Shown here in pieces: positions 2,268-55,427 of a DNA stretch of 64,000 bases. Within the stretch, counting starts at the first letter, position 1. Every line of letters begins with the position of its first letter. Where the stretch lies: contig NZ_LT900021.1 of the NCBI RefSeq assembly GCF_900198835.1, positions 1 through 64,000 on the forward strand. The letters are read 5' to 3'. This DNA is from Thermococcus henrietii (GTDB lineage: Archaea; Methanobacteriota_B; Thermococci; Thermococcales; Thermococcaceae). The translations under genes and the position numbers were made by a program. The notes under the pieces were generated by a model. That model saw only the letters and a list, made by a program, of their open reading frames with translations, ran no database searches and was not told the DNA's origin.

Positions 2268-3530
2268 TCACAAATACCATTCCGAAAAGCTTCCGAGACC
2301 GAGCCTCTCAAGCGTCCTCATCACGCCCAGCGCTATCCCCTCGACCTCTATCCCGCCGGGGGGCTTGTAGGCGTCGCCGACGACGTAGACGTCATTTACA
2401 GGAAAGTCTTCCACAACCTGACCGCTGGCGACCCTGTTCACGGGGTTTCCGTCGAGGTAGGTCTGTATCAGAAGGATTTCGCCCTCGCTATCGAGGTTCG
2501 GGAAGATTCTGTAGATGTCCTCAATGCCCTTCCTCTGCTCGGCCTTGACGTTTTTACTTTGCAAAGCGTGGTGGAGCATTATCAGAGTGTAACCCTCTTT
2601 AGCCAGCTCCGGGCTGAGCGAGGAGGGCTCGTTGTAGCCGTTTATCCTCTCTGTGTCGAGGGTAAACACGACGGTGTTGCCTATCCTCGGCTTCCCCTTC
2701 AGGGCGACGTTATACTTTATCCCTTCGCTCGGCTTTAGAGAGTCAATGCGCTTAAGGTAATCGCTGTCGAAGTTGTCCCTCCCAATCAGCTCGACGGTCT
2801 CCTTTATCCCAATGTTAGAAACGAGAACGTCGTAGGGAAACTCCTCGCCTTCGGCGGTGATGGCCTTCTTTTCATCAACGTCGACTTCAACAACTCTCTT
2901 CCGCGTTAGAACCCTACCCCCGTTTCGCTCGACGATTCCCGCGAGTTCATCGGTTACTGCACTGCAACCGCCCCGGATAAGCCCCGGACCACCCCACTTA
3001 AGTGCCGCTTTAATTTCCCTCGCCAGCTCTCCCGCGGGAACGTCCAAGACGCTGTCGGCCCAGCCGAGGAAGCTCTTGATGAAGAGGTCAACGAACTCGT
3101 TGTCGCCTATTTTTTCCCGAATCCACTCGCGCCCGCTCATCTCGGCCTCTTCTCCCCCTGGGAGTTTGTTCCTCTTCACGTCGAGGAGCAACTTCGTCGC
3201 TTTGGCCTTCTCAGTGAAGCTTAAGTACTTCCAGCCCTCGCGGTAGTGGAAGGTCCTGCCCTCGTAGAAAATCATGCCCTTCGGGTTGGAGTTGACTATC
3301 TGGACTTTCGCGCCGAGCAGTTTTAGGAGATGAGCCAGAGGCCCGTCCTCGCCGTGCGGGAGCATGTGGAAGGCACCAGTGGAGAGGCCGAAGCCCCTGT
3401 ACGGAAGGTTCGCGAACCTGCCACCGATTCTCGGGGACTTTTCGAGAACCGTAACATCATAGCCGTTTTTGGCGAGAAATGAAGCGGTTAAAAGTCCGCC
3501 GATGCCCGAGCCTATTACCACAGCCCTCAT
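2268..3530 (-). CDS. FAD-dependent oxidoreductase of the phytoene desaturase/amine oxidase type
   Basis: The 420-residue protein opens with an ADP-binding Rossmann motif (GSGIGGLLTASFLA, residues 7-20) followed by the acidic end of the second strand (LEKSPRIGGR), as in FAD-dependent phytoene desaturase, geranylgeranyl reductase-like and NAD(P)-binding oxidoreductases. A second FAD signature is near the C-terminus (DVYVVGDAYKPPGGIEVEG). Members act on isoprenoids or other reduced substrates, but the substrate cannot be read here. No transmembrane segment is evident. A GGTG six bases before the ATG supports the start. It stands alone upstream of carbamate kinase and is divergent from RiPP locus A. 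Confidence 0.8.
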   Translation of the reverse strand: MRAVVIGSGIGGLLTASFLAKNGYDVTVLEKSPRIGGRFANLPYRGFGLSTGAFHMLPHGEDGPLAHLLKLLGAKVQIVNSNPKGMIFYEGRTFHYREGWKYLSFTEKAKATKLLLDVKRNKLPGGEEAEMSGREWIREKIGDNEFVDLFIKSFLGWADSVLDVPAGELAREIKAALKWGGPGLIRGGCSAVTDELAGIVERNGGRVLTRKRVVEVDVDEKKAITAEGEEFPYDVLVSNIGIKETVELIGRDNFDSDYLKRIDSLKPSEGIKYNVALKGKPRIGNTVVFTLDTERINGYNEPSSLSPELAKEGYTLIMLHHALQSKNVKAEQRKGIEDIYRIFPNLDSEGEILLIQTYLDGNPVNRVASGQVVEDFPVNDVYVVGDAYKPPGGIEVEGIALGVMRTLERLGLGSFSEWYL

Positions 3531-3703
3531 TCTACCACCTAAGAAGATGTCGAGATGGATATTATAAAGGGTTTGGCTGTTGCACAGCTATACAACTCTT
3601 TTACTCAGGCTTCTTTCGGGCAATTCTAATAGGAAAACATACGTTGGAATAAATTCATACTCGAAAAAAAAGAAGGAATGTTTACTTAAAATAAAGAGAA
3701 AGA

Positions 3704-3713
3704 TTTATAAATA
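3704..3713 (+). promoter_or_regulatory. Archaeal promoter (TATA box) of RiPP locus A
   Basis: A strong TATA element, TTTATAAATA, follows an A/G-rich BRE-like run (agagaaaga). Transcription should start about 25 bases downstream, near 3735, leaving a short leader with AGGAGGTGAT before the peptide gene. The 228-base gap from 3531 is very AT-rich and otherwise holds only the divergent promoter region of the FAD enzyme. Confidence 0.7.
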
Positions 3714-3758
3714 AACATTGGTCATAATATAATGCAAAAAATTTAAGGAGGTGATGAT

Positions 3759-3863
3759 ATGGAAGAGTTGATTGTACTGGAAAGGGGTTCAGCAAGTTTT
3801 GATGAACCCAACTTTTGTGGAGTTTTCTGCAATCCAGTGAAAGGAGGAGATAATCCTAATTAA
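3759..3863 (+). CDS. Candidate RiPP precursor peptide A (34 aa, two cysteines)
   Basis: This small gene encodes 34 residues, beginning MEELIVLERGSASFDEPN and ending with a core-like segment FCGVFCNPVKGGDNPN. It has a nearly perfect Shine-Dalgarno (AGGAGGTGAT) and its own strong TATA box. Two cysteines (Cys20 and Cys24) sit in a CxxxC arrangement, and the N-terminal half is acidic and leader-like. A radical SAM/SPASM enzyme with a PqqD-like N-terminus starts 75 bases downstream, followed by an ABC exporter. By analogy with sactipeptides and ranthipeptides, the Cys thiols could be crosslinked to backbone carbons. The modification and the activity are inferred; the peptide family is not one I recognise. 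Confidence 0.75.
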   Translation: MEELIVLERGSASFDEPNFCGVFCNPVKGGDNPN

Positions 3864-3880
3864 TGTGGAGGTTTAGACGT

Positions 3881-3905
3881 TGAGCTTTTTTATCTTTTTT
3901 TATTT
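3881..3905 (+). terminator. T-rich tract between precursor A and its maturase
   Basis: Two runs of T (gctttttt and tctttttttattt) follow the peptide stop codon by about 20 bases, and no stable hairpin is needed for archaeal termination at oligo-T. It would let most transcripts end after the peptide gene while some read through into the maturase, giving more substrate than enzyme. Confidence 0.6.
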
Positions 3906-3937
3906 AATCCCTTCTAATAAATAGGAGGTGATAAATA

Positions 3938-5266
3938 ATGATAGATAGTAGTAAATTTAAGGCCTCGAAGTATATTTTAGACATTCCATGTGATATAGGG
4001 GACAATAGATATATAATATTATTTAATACCCTCACTCATTCTTTAGTTGCTGTATCAGAGAAAATTTGGAAGAAACTTAGAAACGATAATCTCAAAGAAA
4101 TACCAACAGAGATTTTTGATGAATTAATAAACCTGGGATTTCTATTGCCGGAAGAATTAGATGAAAGGGAGATAGCAAGGACACGCATAAATTTATCAAA
4201 ATATAACCCAACACATATGGGAATGTTTGTAAATATGACATCAAGATGCAATCTTGCATGTCCATACTGTTATCAAGACTTAAGAAAGAATTCAAACATT
4301 AATCTAGATTTAACAGTTGAAAATTGGAACAAAATCATGAAGTTGATTTCTAAAAAAGGAGATATTCTAAAGAAGATAAGTGTTGTATTCTTCGGAGGAG
4401 AGCCCATGTTGAATTATGATACCCTGAAAGTAGCAGTAAGAGATCTAGATTCTTTAAGGGAGATAGATATTGAAACTTCTATGTCCATAATAACTAATGG
4501 AACGTTATTCTCCAAGCAAACGGGTCAAGAGCTGGCACCTTTCATAAATTCAGTTCAGATCACTCTAGACGGAATGAGGGAGACTCATGATAAGATGAGA
4601 CCATATCCCGATGGACGTGGAACATTTGATATTATCCTGAAGAATATCCTAGATAATATTGATCAATACAAAAAGAGAATCATATTGAGATCGAATATAA
4701 ATGAAAGCAATATCGCTAGTGTTAAGTCCTTATTACATTATTTAAGAGAGGAATACGGGTTACATAAGTTGTTAGGAGGGGTTGGTTTTGAATACATATT
4801 TCCAACGCAAACGTCAATACATGCAGGTGAAAGCTATAAATTAAGCCAACACATCTCAAAACTACTAATTGAAATTTACTCCTACGCTGTGGATTTGGGA
4901 TATCCAATAGGAAATCCCCTAGTACTCGGTCCATGTATGGCAAGCCATGCTTTTAGTTTTGCGGTGGATGAACAACTAAATGTATATAAATGTCCAGGCT
5001 TTTTATATTCAAACCCAGACGGATACATTGACGAAGATGGTAATCTTATCATCATGAATTCTAGATGGTATTCTTTAATAAACTTTGAGCCACCATGTGC
5101 TTTCAATTGTAAATTTGGCCCAATATGCTATGGAGGATGTAAATGGATGGCCAGTGCGTTAAAGTCTAAAATTTCTTGTAACATAGAGCACTTACAGAAT
5201 TACAGCGAATTTTTGACACTTTATGTTAAGTCAAGATACAAAAAACTTCTGGAGGGTGAACAATGA
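3938..5266 (+). CDS. Radical SAM/SPASM peptide maturase A
   Basis: This 442-residue enzyme has three parts. Residues 1-90 resemble a PqqD-like RiPP recognition element, ending in an acidic helix. The radical SAM core carries the CNLACPYC cluster (Cys104, Cys108, Cys111) and GGEP (153-156). The C-terminal SPASM domain has seven cysteines (333, 352, 387, 391, 397, 401, 414) in the expected CX3CX5CX3C layout for two auxiliary Fe-S clusters. Such enzymes install thioether or C-C crosslinks in small peptides, and the obvious substrate is the 34-aa peptide upstream. AGGAGGTGATAAAT precedes the ATG. The gene is strikingly AT-rich compared with its neighbours, which suggests transfer. It overlaps the next ABC gene by four bases. 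Confidence 0.88.
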   Translation: MIDSSKFKASKYILDIPCDIGDNRYIILFNTLTHSLVAVSEKIWKKLRNDNLKEIPTEIFDELINLGFLLPEELDEREIARTRINLSKYNPTHMGMFVNMTSRCNLACPYCYQDLRKNSNINLDLTVENWNKIMKLISKKGDILKKISVVFFGGEPMLNYDTLKVAVRDLDSLREIDIETSMSIITNGTLFSKQTGQELAPFINSVQITLDGMRETHDKMRPYPDGRGTFDIILKNILDNIDQYKKRIILRSNINESNIASVKSLLHYLREEYGLHKLLGGVGFEYIFPTQTSIHAGESYKLSQHISKLLIEIYSYAVDLGYPIGNPLVLGPCMASHAFSFAVDEQLNVYKCPGFLYSNPDGYIDEDGNLIIMNSRWYSLINFEPPCAFNCKFGPICYGGCKWMASALKSKISCNIEHLQNYSEFLTLYVKSRYKKLLEGEQ

Positions 5267-6171
5267 ACGTGATAGAAATCAACAACCTCACCAAAGTATA
5301 TCCCGATGGTACAAAGGCTAACGACGGAATTTCGATAAACGTGGGAAAGAATGAAATCGTTGGTATTATCGGTCCCAACGGAGCGGGGAAGACTACCCTT
5401 ATACGTCAGCTTTTGGGACTTCTAAGGCCTACTGAGGGCCATATTAGGGTTATGGGAAGGGACATACTGGCAAATCCGGGCATCATAAAGGAAACTCTAG
5501 CCTACGTGCCCCAATACCCTCTCAGCTTTCCATCGCTAAGGGTTGAGGAAGTTCTGGGATACGTGCTTAAAATGCGGAACGGAGACATTTCACCGGTGGA
5601 GATGAGAGAGAAGATATCTGAGGTTTTGAATCTCCTTGGACTCAATGGGGCGGCAAAGTTCTTTGGGTATCAGCTTTCCGGAGGCATGAAGAAATCACTA
5701 TTGCTGGCAATGGCACTTGTTCAGGAGCTCCCGGTTCTCGTGCTCGACGAGCCCACGAGCATGGTGGACATCGTCACAAAACACCGCCTCTGGAGTGCAA
5801 TAAGGAACTCAAACCGCGAGGGTATTCTACTCGCCAGCCACGACATGAACGAAGTCAAGGCCCTATGCGATAGGGTGTATCTCCTCGTCTACGGGAAGAT
5901 AGTCGCCTCTGGCACGCCTGCGGACATCGTCTCAATGATTAAGATGCCTACTGAAGTTCGCCTGATACCTGAACGAGCGATATCCCCCAACCTTCTGCCT
6001 AAGGAACACAAAAGGCGCGGAGACCTCTACGAAATGGCCTTTGACACGCTTGGGGATGCGCTGAAGACGGTGGAGGCAATACTCGAGAGTTCCGGCATCG
6101 CATACCTTGAGATTGAATCCCCCTCCTTCGAGAACCTCGTGATAAGCCTCATCGGGAGGGATAGAGAATGA
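5263..6171 (+). CDS. ABC transporter ATP-binding protein (RiPP locus A exporter)
   Basis: The 302-residue ATPase has Walker A GPNGAGKTT (about residues 37-45), signature LSGGMKKS and Walker B VLVLDEPTS, and a SHD switch histidine. A C-terminal extension of about 80 residues follows the nucleotide-binding domain, as in drug and bacteriocin exporters of the ABC-2 type. It overlaps both its upstream maturase and its downstream permease by four bases, so all three are probably translated together. The role is likely export of, or self-protection from, the modified peptide. The base composition is ordinary for the chromosome, unlike the maturase. Confidence 0.9.
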   Translation: MNVIEINNLTKVYPDGTKANDGISINVGKNEIVGIIGPNGAGKTTLIRQLLGLLRPTEGHIRVMGRDILANPGIIKETLAYVPQYPLSFPSLRVEEVLGYVLKMRNGDISPVEMREKISEVLNLLGLNGAAKFFGYQLSGGMKKSLLLAMALVQELPVLVLDEPTSMVDIVTKHRLWSAIRNSNREGILLASHDMNEVKALCDRVYLLVYGKIVASGTPADIVSMIKMPTEVRLIPERAISPNLLPKEHKRRGDLYEMAFDTLGDALKTVEAILESSGIAYLEIESPSFENLVISLIGRDRE

Positions 6172-6884
6172 TTCGGCCCCTAATCGGAATGGAGCTAAAG
6201 GGAATGAGGATTTACAAGACGTTCCTCCTAGTCAATCTCCTTATCATGCCGCTCGCCCTTTTGTTTATGATGATTATGAACTCCGGCTCAAGAACCCCCG
6301 AGGACATCTCATACCTCGTGAGCGGTTTCATCGTCGTTTCGCTGGTGAGCTCTTTCCTTGGAACACTGACGAACAGAGTCAGTAACATCTTTGAACCCAG
6401 CGTTCTTGAACTCTACTCGACGTTGCCACCAAAGATTTCCACAGTTATTCTTGCACAGTTCCTAACGTACTCTCTCATGGTCACTCCTCAAGTGCTAATA
6501 GGTCTCACCGTTATACTCTATTACCAAGGAGTGAGCAGGATAAACGTTCCGCTCTTAGTCCTGGCACTTTTGCTCACCTTCCTTGAACTAGGAGCATTGG
6601 CAGTCGCAATAGGAGCAAAAATAGGAAACCCCTACAAGGCAATGGCCGTTACGGGAATACTTCCCTGGCTCCTCGTGGTGTTCTCCCCTGCCTACTACCG
6701 CTCAAGCTTTCCGGCGCTCTACCTGAACCCCGTTACGCACCTTCTTTCCTGCATCCGCTCAGCGATTGGACTGCAGAGTATAAATCCCATTTCGTGGTTA
6801 GTATCGGGAGCCTTGACTGTTATTTTCGTAGTCTTGGCACTTAGAAATATCCGTTCCGGCTACATGCTTGAGAAGCCGTTTTAG
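6168..6884 (+). CDS. ABC-2 type permease (RiPP locus A exporter)
   Basis: The 238-residue protein has about six hydrophobic helices (starting around residues 17, 47, 95, 127, 157 and 208), the usual plan of an ABC-2 permease that pairs as a dimer with a separate ATPase. It starts inside the stop codon of the ATPase gene. It would form the membrane channel that exports the peptide product or protects the host. The following 70 bases to the convergent GAPOR gene are AT-rich and likely hold the terminators for both. Confidence 0.85.
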   Translation: MIRPLIGMELKGMRIYKTFLLVNLLIMPLALLFMMIMNSGSRTPEDISYLVSGFIVVSLVSSFLGTLTNRVSNIFEPSVLELYSTLPPKISTVILAQFLTYSLMVTPQVLIGLTVILYYQGVSRINVPLLVLALLLTFLELGALAVAIGAKIGNPYKAMAVTGILPWLLVVFSPAYYRSSFPALYLNPVTHLLSCIRSAIGLQSINPISWLVSGALTVIFVVLALRNIRSGYMLEKPF

Positions 6885-6953
6885 CCATTTTTCATTATTC
6901 TTCTCATCAAAATTATCTTCAAAGAACGCCAAACGGAGAAAGAGAGGATAAAA

Positions 6954-8912
6954 TCAGAGCCTCCACTCAACCCCAAGAATCTCGCTGTAGGCTTCCAGCA
7001 CTTTGCTCAGGTACTCCTTCGCAGTGCCGACCTTGTCGGCCCTGAACTTCTCGGCCCACTTTTCGTTTCCGAACTCCTCACTGCCGGCCGAAACGAGGTC
7101 AATAACGCGCATGCTGTCCCAGAAGACCGGGGTGTAGCCGGCCTTCCTTGCGTACTCGATGAGCCTCCCGATTTGCTTTTTCGCGTGCTCCTCCATGTCG
7201 ATGTTCTGGCCGTAGGCATCCATGAAGAGCGCCTTAAGCACGGGCTTCATCCAGCCCCTGTGGAAGCGACACCAGCCGACGTTGTCGTACCAGAACTCCC
7301 AGAGAGCGCTCGCTATTATCTTCTGCGCCAGCTCCTTCGGCTCAAGGAAGACGCCGAACTGGTAGAAGGTCCAGTAGCGACCCTGAATCGGGAGCGGTAT
7401 GTAGTTGCCTATCGCCCAGTACATCGTTGGCGTCATCTCGCCGTCCTCGCCGAGTGGAGTGAAGACCGCGTAGTCCTTGAAGCTCTCGCCGTACTTGAGC
7501 CTGTCCTTGAAGCGCTCGTCAAGGATTACGCTCGCCTTCCTCTTGCCGAGGCCGATTATCCTGGCTATCTCGTTCTCGCCGAAGGCCACGCGGTGGGCCA
7601 GTTCAGCAACGAGCCTGGCGTTGATTTCGCTCGCCTCGACAGGACGCTCGATTAGGGCCTCCTTCGTGAACTCCGGCTTGCCACTAAGGCCAACCTCCTC
7701 CGGCTTGAGGAGCCCGCGGTAAACGAGCTCAAGAACCCACGCGGCGGTTCCTCCGAACTCTATCGCGTCGAAGCCCATAGCATCGACGGCGTGAACGCTT
7801 ATGTCGCTCGCCCTCAGGACGATGCTTCCGCTGAGCGGACCGTTGGCCTCGTAGGGCTCGTACTCGACGTGGTGGCCGTTGCGGTACTTCTTGCAGACGA
7901 CCGGACAGGGCTCGCCACAGGTTGTCCAGTTTTTGGGCTTTATTGCTTCCTCGTTGAAGGGCTCCCAGTAGTGCTTCATTATGTTCTCGTGAATTTTTAT
8001 GCGCTCCTCCTTCGGAATGTAGGGCATCTGCCAGTTGAGTATTGGAACGAAGTCACCCTCAGCCGGATAGTTGCCTCCGAAGGTTCCACCGGTGTTGAGC
8101 TTGGGGTTGAAGCGGTACTTGGTGGTCTTCTCGCTTATGACCTCGTTGTAGGGCTTTTTGTGGACGCCCTCGACTATGCCCTTCGCCGTCCTGAAGTTCG
8201 AGATGTCCTCGCCTGGGAATTTCCTCTTCCTCGGCTTTCCACCGAAGATTATTCCTATGACGTTGTGTGCCCTGAGCAGAACGCTTCCGGAGCCACCCCT
8301 CGCGGCCCAGTCCTCGCTACCGACGAGGCGCTGGCCCTTCCTCAATGCCTGGGAGAATATAGCGCCGTAGTTGGTGTTGAGGGCAGAAGGACCGACGACA
8401 GCTATGCGGTACTCGAAGTCGAAGCGCCCTCCAAAGGTGTCTATGAGGTACTGGGTGAGGGCATAGACGCCTTCCTCGCCCTTGTAGCCCCTCCAGACCT
8501 CGATGACCTTTTCAAGCTCAATCTCGTGGAGCTCGACCCCAACGTTCTCGCCGTCGTTGTAGAGGAGAACAACGACGGGCTTCTCGGCCTTGCCCTCGAA
8601 GGTCACGAAGTCAACGCCGACGTTCTTGAAGGCGTAGGCGGCACCGCCCATCGCCGATGGAAAGAGAGTCCCGTAGAGCGGGGAGCGGAAGAAGAACATG
8701 AGCCTGTGTGCACCGGGAAGGGCCGAACCCGAGAACGGCCCCATTCCCATCACGACGACGTTTCTCGGGTCGTACGGGTCAATGCTATGGGTTTCAAGGG
8801 TCTCGTGGAGCTCAAGACCGTAATCTATGACGCCGTAAATGCCATCTTTCTCGATTTCCTCGCTTTCAACTTTGTTCTCGTTGAGCTTTATATGTATGAC
8901 AGTGAACTTCAC
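6954..8912 (-). CDS. gor: Glyceraldehyde-3-phosphate:ferredoxin oxidoreductase
   Basis: The product of 652 residues is a tungstopterin aldehyde:ferredoxin oxidoreductase family enzyme that matches the glycolytic GAPOR of Pyrococcus, which oxidises glyceraldehyde 3-phosphate to 3-phosphoglycerate with ferredoxin as acceptor. Family hallmarks are the N-terminal DPYDPRN and GPFSGS/MGGAAYAFK stretches around the pterin site, and the cysteine cluster TCGEPCPVVCKK for the 4Fe-4S centre. The GTG at 8912 is chosen: GGGGTG lies about six bases before it, and the resulting MKFTVIHIK matches the known N-terminus; a reading that adds MVA in front would start within the ribosome binding site. FBPase lies upstream in the same direction, so opposing carbon fluxes are encoded side by side. 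Confidence 0.93.
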   Translation of the reverse strand: MKFTVIHIKLNENKVESEEIEKDGIYGVIDYGLELHETLETHSIDPYDPRNVVVMGMGPFSGSALPGAHRLMFFFRSPLYGTLFPSAMGGAAYAFKNVGVDFVTFEGKAEKPVVVLLYNDGENVGVELHEIELEKVIEVWRGYKGEEGVYALTQYLIDTFGGRFDFEYRIAVVGPSALNTNYGAIFSQALRKGQRLVGSEDWAARGGSGSVLLRAHNVIGIIFGGKPRKRKFPGEDISNFRTAKGIVEGVHKKPYNEVISEKTTKYRFNPKLNTGGTFGGNYPAEGDFVPILNWQMPYIPKEERIKIHENIMKHYWEPFNEEAIKPKNWTTCGEPCPVVCKKYRNGHHVEYEPYEANGPLSGSIVLRASDISVHAVDAMGFDAIEFGGTAAWVLELVYRGLLKPEEVGLSGKPEFTKEALIERPVEASEINARLVAELAHRVAFGENEIARIIGLGKRKASVILDERFKDRLKYGESFKDYAVFTPLGEDGEMTPTMYWAIGNYIPLPIQGRYWTFYQFGVFLEPKELAQKIIASALWEFWYDNVGWCRFHRGWMKPVLKALFMDAYGQNIDMEEHAKKQIGRLIEYARKAGYTPVFWDSMRVIDLVSAGSEEFGNEKWAEKFRADKVGTAKEYLSKVLEAYSEILGVEWRL

Positions 8913-9037
8913 GGCCACCACCCCTTTGTATCACTCTAAGTGTTAGGTCTCGCCAAAAGTTAATAAGGTTTTCCAAAAACATAAGAACTAACCCAATCGA
9001 GAAAAGTTAAACGGAAATGTTAATAGAAAGGGAGGAA

Positions 9038-20222: not shown

Positions 20223-21572
20223 ATGCAGAATGTCATCAAACCTGCCGTGACATTGGAAACCCTCGAGGATAAGTATGTCTTTCTTGCAAAAGAAACCGTG
20301 CTTAGGATTTATCCCCATCTCGCATCCATCCACAGAGGAAACATCAAACGAATCGTGAACCTTGATGCCGCCTATGTTCTCAGGATGTGTGATGGGAAAA
20401 GAAAAGCATCCGAAATCACAGACAGCCTTGCCCATTCTAAGGAAGAGCGTCATAAAATCCTTGAATTTCTCTTAACTGCCGTCAAAAATGGTGATGTGAT
20501 TGTTTCAGATATCCCAATCAATGTCCCAGTTGAGGTGGCTGAGCACGATTACATCCTCCCGTCACATGTAGTCTTTGAACTTACCGAGAACTGCAACCTA
20601 AACTGTGCCCACTGCTATAGAATAAAAGAAAGGGTACCGCTCTACATGCCCTTTGAGGCATTCAAAAAGATAATCGATTTTCTCTCAGGACACCTCCTCG
20701 TTGGCACTGAGCTAACCGGTGGAGAACCGACGCTCCATCCGGACTTCGTGGAAATCGTTAGGTACGCCGCGGAGAGGCTCGAGCTCGTTGGCGTCCTCAC
20801 GAACGGTCTCTACTTTCCTCAGGGGATGATTGAGAAACTCTCATCATACACAGACAAGCTCTTCTTCAGCGTCAGCCTCGATAGCCCAGACCCCACGTTT
20901 CACGACGGATTCAGAGGTTTGAGAGGTGCGTGGAAGAGAACTGTTGAAAACATAAAACGGCTCACCGACGCTGGATTTAATGTGAGGATTGCCATGACCG
21001 TAACGCCGGGGAACATAGAGCACATAGAAAAGGTCGCTGAACTGGCAGTTGAGTTGGGGGCCAAAATGTTCACCTACAGCCCGATGCTTCCCTTTGGCAG
21101 GGCCGATGGATTCACGTGGTCCAACGAAGACCTGTGGCGCCTCAGTAAAATCGACAGAAAAGTTCGCAAAAGATTTTCTAAGATAATACCCGTTGCCCAG
21201 TTTGAGGAATTCGGGAAGAACATTGAAAACTGCGGTGCAGGGTGGAGAAGTTTAACAATAGGCCCCGACCTCTCAGTCAGGATGTGTGTTGTGAGCGACT
21301 CGGCCAGAGATGTTATTGCCAAGATTGACATCAACGATTTGGAAGGCTCCTTTAGGAAGATAACCCCGCATCTTAAATTTCTCCATGGAATAAACGCCCC
21401 TGGTCCTGGAATCTGCGGAAACTGCAAGTTCATTAACTTTTGCACTCCCTGCATCCTGCGCGCACGCTACGTCCTTGAAAAGGGATTCATACCACTCAAA
21501 GGATGCCGATGGGCAAATACCATTGGAGTTAAAGCCCTGAAAAAGTATCTCCGGGTGAGAACCAATGGATGA
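20223..21572 (+). CDS. Radical SAM/SPASM peptide maturase B
   Basis: The 449-residue enzyme has an N-terminal PqqD-like region (residues 1-100, with DGKRKASEITDSLAHS typical of such recognition elements), the radical SAM motif CNLNCAHC (Cys124, Cys128, Cys131), GGEP at 166-169, and a SPASM domain with seven cysteines (337, 355, 398, 401, 407, 410, 428). Its sequence is quite unlike maturase A apart from these hallmarks. The nearest substrate is the tetra-cysteine peptide just upstream. AGGAGGTGAAGGG precedes the ATG. It overlaps the next gene by eight bases. Crosslink chemistry is inferred. Confidence 0.88.
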   Translation: MQNVIKPAVTLETLEDKYVFLAKETVLRIYPHLASIHRGNIKRIVNLDAAYVLRMCDGKRKASEITDSLAHSKEERHKILEFLLTAVKNGDVIVSDIPINVPVEVAEHDYILPSHVVFELTENCNLNCAHCYRIKERVPLYMPFEAFKKIIDFLSGHLLVGTELTGGEPTLHPDFVEIVRYAAERLELVGVLTNGLYFPQGMIEKLSSYTDKLFFSVSLDSPDPTFHDGFRGLRGAWKRTVENIKRLTDAGFNVRIAMTVTPGNIEHIEKVAELAVELGAKMFTYSPMLPFGRADGFTWSNEDLWRLSKIDRKVRKRFSKIIPVAQFEEFGKNIENCGAGWRSLTIGPDLSVRMCVVSDSARDVIAKIDINDLEGSFRKITPHLKFLHGINAPGPGICGNCKFINFCTPCILRARYVLEKGFIPLKGCRWANTIGVKALKKYLRVRTNG

Positions 21573-21996
21573 GAAAACGGTCCTTCTTCTTCTCGGTCTC
21601 TACGGTTACGTTGCCTTCGCCCTCATCCTCCACACCGCAAAGAAAACCCTGCTGGGTGAGCCATCCCACTGGCCAAAGATAAGGAGGTATTTCGATGCAG
21701 TCGTCGGGTTAATCTCAGTCATTTACTCCCTTCAGATAACTCAGAAAGACCTCCGCCTTGTAACGACCCTCTACGGCCTCTCTCTCATGGCAAACTCCGT
21801 TAGGGGTCCCCTCGGGGTGGGCAGGTGGGGAACCGGCTCCAGAAAGGCCTTCAACTACGTGGCAAACTCCTACATAATCCTCTCCCTCTTCCTGATGGCG
21901 CCGGCGGTGAAGAAGCTCACGGGACTCGAGCCGGTTCTCGTCCTAATTCCCCTGTTCCTCGGGACGTACTATGCCATTTGGGGGTGGAGGAGGTGA
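21565..21996 (+). CDS. Small multi-helix membrane protein of RiPP locus B
   Basis: The 143-residue protein has about four predicted helices (starting near residues 7, 42, 65 and 100) and short polar loops. It overlaps the maturase gene upstream and the ATPase gene downstream, so it belongs to the operon. Locus A has no equivalent. It could be an immunity protein, an extra exporter component or a leader-processing factor; no protease motif is seen. Family not recognised. Confidence 0.75.
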   Translation: MDEKTVLLLLGLYGYVAFALILHTAKKTLLGEPSHWPKIRRYFDAVVGLISVIYSLQITQKDLRLVTTLYGLSLMANSVRGPLGVGRWGTGSRKAFNYVANSYIILSLFLMAPAVKKLTGLEPVLVLIPLFLGTYYAIWGWRR

Positions 21997-22685
21997 AGGT
22001 CGTCGAGGTCAGGAACCTCAGGAAATCCCTTGGGGGCAGGGAAGTCCTCCGGGATGTGAACTTTGAAGTGGAGAGAGGCGAAATCCACGGCTTCCTTGGG
22101 CCGAACGGCGCTGGGAAGACAACGACAATCAGGACAATCCTCGGTCTCCTCCACCCGGATTCCGGTGAGGTCAGGGTCTTCGGCGAGAAACCGTCAAGGG
22201 GCATGTTCACCAAAGTTGGAGTCATGTTCGAGTATGAGGTTCTGAACCCCGACTGGACGGTCGAGGAAAACCTGCTCTTCTGTGCTTATTCAAAGGGATT
22301 CGACCGCGACGAAGTCACGAGGGTTCTGAGGGAGGTGCGGTTTGAAGAGGCCCACTGGGGGAAGAGGTTCAAAGAACTCTCCAAGGGCATGCGCAGGAAG
22401 GTTTCCCTCGCCGCTGCCTTGGTGGGCAACCCCGAGCTCCTAATTTTGGACGAGCCCATGAGCGGGCTTGACCCCACCGCGAGGATAGCGATGAGGGAAC
22501 TCCTCACCAACCTGAGGAATACCGGGAAGACGATACTGTTCTCCTCCCACGAACTCGCGGAGGTTCAGAAGGTGGCGAATAGGGCCACCATAATCAAGGA
22601 CGGAAGGACGGTGTCCACTTTTGGGGTGGACAACTCCGTTGACCTCGAAAAGATGTATATCAAACTCGTGGGGGTGGAATTATGA
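21993..22685 (+). CDS. ABC transporter ATP-binding protein (RiPP locus B exporter)
   Basis: The 230-residue ATPase has Walker A GPNGAGKTTT, signature LSKGMRRKVSLA and Walker B LLILDEPMSG, with a SSHEL switch histidine. The GTG at 21993 is preferred: it overlaps the upstream stop by four bases and yields MKVVEVRNLRKSLGG, the usual NBD start; the open frame continues upstream in the wrong phase of the previous gene. It pairs with the next permease for export of, or immunity to, product B. Confidence 0.88.
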   Translation: MKVVEVRNLRKSLGGREVLRDVNFEVERGEIHGFLGPNGAGKTTTIRTILGLLHPDSGEVRVFGEKPSRGMFTKVGVMFEYEVLNPDWTVEENLLFCAYSKGFDRDEVTRVLREVRFEEAHWGKRFKELSKGMRRKVSLAAALVGNPELLILDEPMSGLDPTARIAMRELLTNLRNTGKTILFSSHELAEVQKVANRATIIKDGRTVSTFGVDNSVDLEKMYIKLVGVEL

Positions 22686-23338
22686 ATATCAGAGGGCTCA
22701 TAACCCTCCACTTCAAGACGACCCTCAGGGACTCACTGTTCGGGATAGTCCTGGTTGGACTCCTCGTGTGGGCGTTCTCCTCAAAGAGCGTTCCCAAAGA
22801 GTTCACAGGGCAGGAGAACTTCACGTTCTACACCCTCTTTACGATGATGCTGGTTGGCTACGCGGTCATGGTTGCAATATCGTTCACGAGCATGATAAAA
22901 CGCAAGACCGCTAGGTTCTACCACCTCCTGCTCGTCATGCCTGGCAGACTTCCCAAGCACGTCTTTTTTGAGCTCCTGCCTTCGCTGTTGCTTGGAGAAA
23001 TTGCATCAATAGCCGTAGGACTTGTGATGTACATGAACACAGAAAACGCGTCTCCCACATGGCTCTTCCTGCCCGTTATCGGCAGTTCGCTCTTCGTCTT
23101 TGGACTCTCAATGGTTTCAATGGTGGTGGTGCTCCAAGTTTCAAACGTGAGACTCATCAACATAATCATGTTCATCCTGCTCTTCGTCCTCGCGAGGGTT
23201 CCAAAATACCTTCTCGAACACGGCTACTCCATCTCGGTCGCGACCAACGTTATGATGCTGATAGCCCTGGGCGTTGCAGTACTCGGCCCGTTGGCCCTCT
23301 CCTCGATAAACACCGAGAGGGTCCTCCTCGCGTCGTGA
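22682..23338 (+). CDS. ABC-2 type permease (RiPP locus B exporter)
   Basis: The 218-residue membrane protein has six predicted helices and starts inside the ATPase stop codon (GGGGTGGAATTATG). It resembles the locus A permease in size and position but not obviously in sequence. It is the last gene of the operon; the next gene, pantoate kinase, begins 40 bases later after a short T-rich stretch and has its own context. Confidence 0.82.
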   Translation: MNIRGLITLHFKTTLRDSLFGIVLVGLLVWAFSSKSVPKEFTGQENFTFYTLFTMMLVGYAVMVAISFTSMIKRKTARFYHLLLVMPGRLPKHVFFELLPSLLLGEIASIAVGLVMYMNTENASPTWLFLPVIGSSLFVFGLSMVSMVVVLQVSNVRLINIIMFILLFVLARVPKYLLEHGYSISVATNVMMLIALGVAVLGPLALSSINTERVLLAS

Positions 23339-55336: not shown

Positions 55337-55427
55337 ACCCCGGAGTAAATACAGGGAGGGGCTTAAAAATCTTAACCCGGGATAAAGCTTTTAGGCTTCA
55401 GGACCCAAGTTAGTTAGGGTGGAGAAA

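Follow-up and report, generated by a model that had tools for sequence, protein, structure and literature searches.

A putative radical SAM/SPASM peptide cassette with an ABC-2 transporter pair at a hypervariable site in Thermococcus henrietii

The first 64,000 nucleotides of contig NZ_LT900021.1 of Thermococcus henrietii (hereafter the window) contain a four-gene operon that very probably directs the synthesis of a 34-residue peptide with chemical modifications. It is proposed that this operon is a RiPP cassette, that its modified product is antagonistic and that its ABC-2 pair serves mainly for self-protection, a reading to which a probability of roughly 60% may be assigned. The elements named in the original prediction, namely a 34-aa ORF, a SPASM enzyme and an overlapping ABC pair, are all present in the positions given below, and its interpretation of them as a RiPP-type precursor/maturase/ABC unit is supported by conservation of the peptide, by selection and by the pairing of peptide and maturase. 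According to the proposed scheme, a promoter at about 3704 would drive the precursor, the leader of which (..IVLERG..) would be bound by the N-terminal winged-helix domain of the maturase, while the radical SAM/SPASM core would act on the peptide core EPNF-C-G-x-x-F-C-N-P, where the conserved cysteines would most likely become the donors of thioether links. The leader would then be cut off by a protease encoded outside the cassette, the four-gene operon encoding none. The product would probably be an antagonistic (archaeocin-like) peptide, and the main role of the ABC-2 pair would be to protect the cell by pumping this peptide out, perhaps with a second role as its exporter. The features of the locus and its borders are as follows.

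2268..3530, minus strand: FAD oxidoreductase, bordering the variable site on the left, outside the cassette (genome comparison)
3704..3711, plus strand: TATA-box-like element TTTATAAA (read in the sequence; alignment)
3746..3755, plus strand: Shine-Dalgarno sequence AAGGAGGTGA of the peptide gene (read in the sequence; alignment)
3759..3863, plus strand: 34-aa precursor peptide MEELIVLERGSASFDEPNFCGVFCNPVKGGDNPN (ORF, profile, selection)
3886..3905, plus strand: T-rich tract in the gap between peptide and maturase genes (T-rich in 6 of 6 aligned loci)
3938..5266, plus strand: radical SAM/SPASM peptide maturase, 442 aa (profiles, alignment, model)
5263..6171, plus strand: ABC ATPase, DrrA/CcmA-like, 302 aa (profiles, homologues)
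6168..6884, plus strand: ABC-2-type permease, 238 aa (weak match to PF12698, under the gathering score)
6954..8921, minus strand: aldehyde-ferredoxin-oxidoreductase-like gene, bordering the variable site on the right, outside the cassette (genome comparison)

The precursor peptide and its pairing with the maturase

The 34-aa peptide is composed of a leader-like stretch (IVLERGS) followed by a core-like stretch (EPNFCGVFCNP), and its two cysteines, Cys20 and Cys24, lie within CGVFC. In an ORF scan of the window it was the sole intergenic ORF of 25-100 aa with both a Shine-Dalgarno sequence and at least two cysteines. A second Shine-Dalgarno sequence precedes the maturase gene after the T-rich gap, the T-rich tract being a possible partial terminator. 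Pairwise comparisons with relatives of the peptide gave pN/pS values of 0.152/0.516, 0.114/0.874, 0.130/0.722 and 0.067/0.491, and these low values indicate that the peptide sequence is under purifying selection; the gene is accordingly judged to be real and not a chance ORF. Neither the peptide (Pfam and NCBIfam) nor its relatives (NCBIfam) matched any family. The alternative of a spurious ORF and a different substrate for the maturase, which the very short length of the ORF and the lack of a library family recognising it might suggest, can practically be dismissed in view of the low pN/pS, the conserved Shine-Dalgarno sequence and TATA box and the strict pairing of peptide and maturase.

Homologues of the maturase were found in other Thermococcaceae (79% in genomes G054 and G063, 62% in G008 and 51% in G093) and, at 39%, on a contig attributed to an Ignavibacteria MAG, and in each of these a small ORF lies directly upstream of the maturase gene. 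These upstream peptides have the common layout [E]xIVLExG...EPNF(x0-2)CGxx(xx)FC, in which the number of cysteines (2-3) and their spacing (x3 or x5) vary and the first and last cysteines are kept in 6 of 6 clade members. In line with a check proposed in the original prediction, strong relatives of the peptide (with the EPNF...C...FC core), seen in five further Thermococcaceae and in the MAG of one thermophilic bacterium, are found only directly upstream of members of the maturase family. A peptide profile run over 115 genomes of the phylum, with a score of at least 50 bits taken as strong, gave eight such matches, each with a gene of the maturase family just downstream. Six of the eight directly precede a maturase of the same clade, including the truncated one of G018, and the other two (in G042 and at a second G018 locus) precede a distant maturase whose precursor was among the sequences used to build the profile.

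The pairing extends to the whole operon, the four-gene order being the same in G054, G063, G008 and G093, and the bacterial contig carrying, in order, the peptide, the radical SAM enzyme (39%), the ATPase (36%) and the permease (31%). Six full-length maturases form a clade with a support of 100/100 in the maturase tree, and a close intact maturase is present in 5 of 94 family genomes, the G018 copy being truncated. A search of 395 genomes from the phylum to which the bacterial relative belongs gave no second case of the cassette, and plasmids and viral contigs held only distant maturases, with at most 28% identity among the matches listed.

The maturase and its probable chemistry

The maturase matches PF04055 (2.3e-13), contains the radical SAM motif CNLACPYC (Cys104, Cys108 and Cys111) and has seven further cysteines at positions 333, 352, 387, 391, 397, 401 and 414; across 20 maturase homologues Cys104/108/111 and six SPASM cysteines are invariant, and Cys414 is nearly so. 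In an AF2 model made from the 20-sequence alignment (pLDDT 88, pTM 0.87), an N-terminal strand/helix domain (residues ~1-72) precedes the radical SAM barrel and the SPASM region, and the strands and helices at residues 7-71 follow a PqqD-like order, the modelled winged-helix domain being leader-binding-like. The best PDB fold matches are CteB (5why, 5wgg), which is matched over the full length, then TigE (8vpo), anSME and ChlB. The locus thus combines the general attributes of radical SAM/SPASM RiPP systems, namely CxxxCxxC with SPASM cysteines, a linked precursor under selection and, in the model, a domain resembling those for leader recognition.

Comparison with NCBIfam placed the maturase far below every curated cut-off (CefB 172.5 against 600, geopeptide maturase 171.4 against 400, PapB 104.5 against 340 and SCIFF 76.2 against 425 bits), and the enzyme would therefore belong to a family of RiPP maturases that has no name as yet; neither the CefB nor the geopeptide label was accepted, since both scores fall under the cut-off. 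By sequence comparison, peptide and maturase represent a precursor/maturase family that is new, although the radical-SAM RiPPs to which it belongs are a known kind. The best-scoring system, CefA/CefB or 'Cys-every-fifth' (NF038108/NF038107), also occurs in Thermococcales and has the same RRE-like/rSAM/SPASM layout with a precursor just upstream. However, its precursor is ~65-71 aa long with many cysteines as opposed to 34 aa and two cysteines here, its maturase occupies a separate branch of the maturase tree, and the CefA profile had no match to the 34-aa peptide or to three of its relatives. The geopeptide maturase profile (TIGR04280) aligns over nearly the whole protein, although the precursors described here match no library family. 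The SCIFF/ranthipeptide system (CteB, thermocellin) offers the closest solved fold, a leader-binding-like domain plus SPASM and a Cys-containing core, but CteB is only 18% identical, TIGR03974 gives the low SCIFF score quoted above, and SCIFF has six cysteines in ~45 residues whereas the present peptides have 2-3.

In both sactipeptides and ranthipeptides the bond runs from a cysteine sulfur to a carbon of another residue, this being the alpha-carbon in sactipeptide thioethers and the beta- or gamma-carbon in those of ranthipeptides. The crosslink between Cys20 and Cys24 that had been proposed at the outset is not supported in view of this chemistry and of the variable number and spacing of cysteines in the family, and each cysteine is more likely to act as a thioether donor than as the partner of the other. 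The conserved cysteines most likely form S-to-carbon (thioether) links within the core, a preference that follows from the first and last cysteines being invariant reactive core residues and from the closest fold, CteB, being thioether-forming. The conserved Asn18, Phe19 and Phe23 are candidate acceptors; a precedent for an Asn acceptor is NxxcA, in which Cys23 is linked to Asn20 (PMC8326336).

On the other hand, the maturase might make no thioethers at all and instead epimerise residues or form C-C bonds, with the cysteines in a disulfide or free. Radical SAM/SPASM folds are common to several chemistries, the fourth PDB match, TigE, has not been reported to form thioethers, and the conserved EPNF residues might be the true target. 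This is a serious but unlikely alternative, given the retention of the first and last cysteines throughout the clade, the thioether-forming nature of the best fold match and the predominance of thioether or Cys-rich systems among the maturase profile matches, and thioether links are the preferred reading.

The ABC pair and recurrent loss of the maturase

The ATPase gene overlaps the maturase gene by 4 bp (ATGA) and is itself overlapped by the permease gene by 4 bp. Of the 94 family genomes, 12 carry the ATPase and 11 the permease, and no close intact maturase was found without the ABC pair. The pair does occur without an intact maturase in G018, G051, G059, G072, G088 and probably G048, the contig of which begins 61 bp upstream of the ABC genes, making the absence of the maturase there only probable. 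These loci form a series: G018 keeps the peptide and the ABC genes, its maturase having lost about residues 187-406 through an internal deletion that preserves the reading frame; in G072 the promoter, up to its TATA box, runs directly into the terminal 56 bp of the maturase gene; in G059 the promoter is followed by a gene for a 471-aa secreted-type protein and a 25-bp scrap of the maturase 3' end; in G088 the ABC genes come after the promoter, with a last stretch of ~30 bp that looks like the 3' end of the maturase gene (by eye, not as a BLAST match); and in G051 the ABC genes stand alone. T. henrietii also has a second, decayed copy of the cassette (C1:2010117-2011975), with a C-terminal maturase remnant (57%), a frameshifted ATPase and a permease. 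The ATPase tree requires at least three changes (3-4 in bootstrap trees), and the maturase appears to have been lost in at least three lineages in which the ABC pair is intact and selected, since the ABC dN/dS of 0.08-0.19 among maturase-less genomes, like that of other genomes, indicates that purifying selection persists without the maturase.

An exporter would be useless once its product is lost and an immunity pump directed against the products of neighbours would not, so that retention of the ABC pair favours self-protection, with an archaeocin-like product, over dedicated export; self-protection would in turn imply an antagonistic product. The ABC pair had been predicted to be a plain exporter, a view that survives insofar as the pair may double as one, while a sole export role fits its persistence less well than immunity does. 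A broader role of the ABC pair could also explain its retention, and the loss patterns may partly reflect exchange of cassettes because the site is recombinogenic. The skf and yydF/epe epipeptide operons of Bacillus likewise join a short precursor, a radical SAM enzyme and a two-gene ABC transporter linked to resistance or immunity, but they include a protease or protease-like gene, which the present cassette lacks, and the host here is archaeal (PMC8172795, PMC7026026). As a precedent for self-protection, skfE/skfF have been described as serving export/resistance (PMC8172795); against it, the ABC pair of the yydF operon of B. subtilis, which had been postulated to confer immunity, proved to have only a minor role in resistance (PMC7026026).

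It is also conceivable, although rather improbable, that the same RiPP is a signal or a metal- or redox-active factor and not an antimicrobial, with the ABC pair as its dedicated exporter. The constant association of intact maturases with an ABC partner and the 4-bp overlaps, suggestive of coupled expression, agree with this, as does the reported involvement of SCIFF-derived ranthipeptides in quorum sensing (work cited in PMC8326336). However, the survival of selected ABC genes after maturase loss in several lineages argues against it, the cassette has no sensor or regulator, and the patchy distribution of the intact maturase is unlike that of a housekeeping signal or cofactor. Very unlikely is an accidental neighbourhood, in which the pair would be an unrelated envelope transporter lying beside the peptide and maturase in a hypervariable site. 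The site takes many cargoes, the ABC genes stand alone in several genomes and GC contents differ (peptide 0.39, rSAM 0.34, ATPase 0.51 and permease 0.49, against 0.52 for the 64-kb window), but the same four-gene order recurs at other places in G008 and G093 and in the bacterial contig, and the decayed second copy in T. henrietii likewise speaks for a unit. Horizontal gain of an existing ABC pair by the peptide/maturase pair, considered because of the GC difference, was rejected on the ground that the order is kept in three other contexts. Self-protection by the ABC pair hence remains the preferred reading.

The hypervariable site and related loci

In same-genus loci the site is empty in 15 of the 30 examined, with the flanking genes 49-71 bp apart, and in seven genomes (G021, G041, G039, G071, G058, G014 and G070) it holds genes for secreted or membrane proteins. 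About 225 bp around the TATA box (3530-3754) constitute a conserved promoter/5' leader common to these other cargoes, their promoters being 70-82% identical to this part of the window, and the RiPP operon is therefore one cargo of a hypervariable site. In G008 and G093 the four genes are found at other genomic places. The secreted proteins of the site have similar N-termini (MKWKPLFAVLLGL...), and in G042 the corresponding interval (3531-6953 of the window) contains a DNA-methyltransferase-like gene. The site is reminiscent of the hypervariable modules of Thermococcales (PMC8416519).

The statement in the original prediction that no Thermococcales product of this kind was known stands for characterised products as far as found, and no paper linking Thermococcus or Thermococcales with radical SAM RiPPs was found among the open-access papers searched, an earlier mention elsewhere being possible; it needs qualification for loci, as other radical-SAM precursor loci exist in the group, one of them above the CefA cut-off. 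The host group grows near 80 C or above, so that the product should be heat-stable. A tentative extension, for which the odds are somewhat short of even, is that Thermococcales make a thermostable crosslinked archaeocin and that the states of the site correspond to producers (full), immune non-producers (ABC only) and probably sensitive strains (empty). If true, this would be a bacteriocin-style polymorphism of producer, resistant and sensitive strains in hyperthermophilic archaea. With sites that are full, ABC-only or empty, it can be predicted which strains produce, resist or succumb to the peptide, and this unusually clear natural decay series makes the immunity hypothesis, and with it peptide warfare in hyperthermophilic archaea, testable.

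Several further loci were seen. At two of them (L022 and L031) a 39-aa peptide containing PPNFYGCPNLC precedes a distant maturase, and downstream of the maturase an MFS transporter takes the place of the ABC pair. This MFS-linked precursor (G042/G018) was left out of the family, the profile having been built with it, as was its maturase (~26% identical, on an unstable long branch), and a weak peptide match in G087 (E 0.01, internal stop) was dropped as it sits within an unrelated region. Precursors of the Cys-every-fifth type with maturases occur at two Thermococcales loci (L029 and L020), the L029 peptide reaching 50.9 bits where the cut-off for CefA is 30. Another Thermococcales precursor family, of 62-77 aa with many cysteines and the leader EFxIxExGSxExxAGN, was seen at six loci (L014, L015, L016, L018, L019 and L030), each time upstream of a ~30%-identical maturase; two of these peptides were searched against NCBIfam and had no match. 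Within the window, positions 20223-23338 hold a radical SAM-like ORF (449 aa), which is a weak homologue of the maturase (29%), with an ABC ATPase (21825-22685) and a permease (22682-23338). Finally, positions 33976-55413 look like an integrated virus or plasmid, in which an integrase-like ORF begins with a stretch, AGRAGFEPATFGS, that is repeated near 55380 as a possible duplication of the attachment site.
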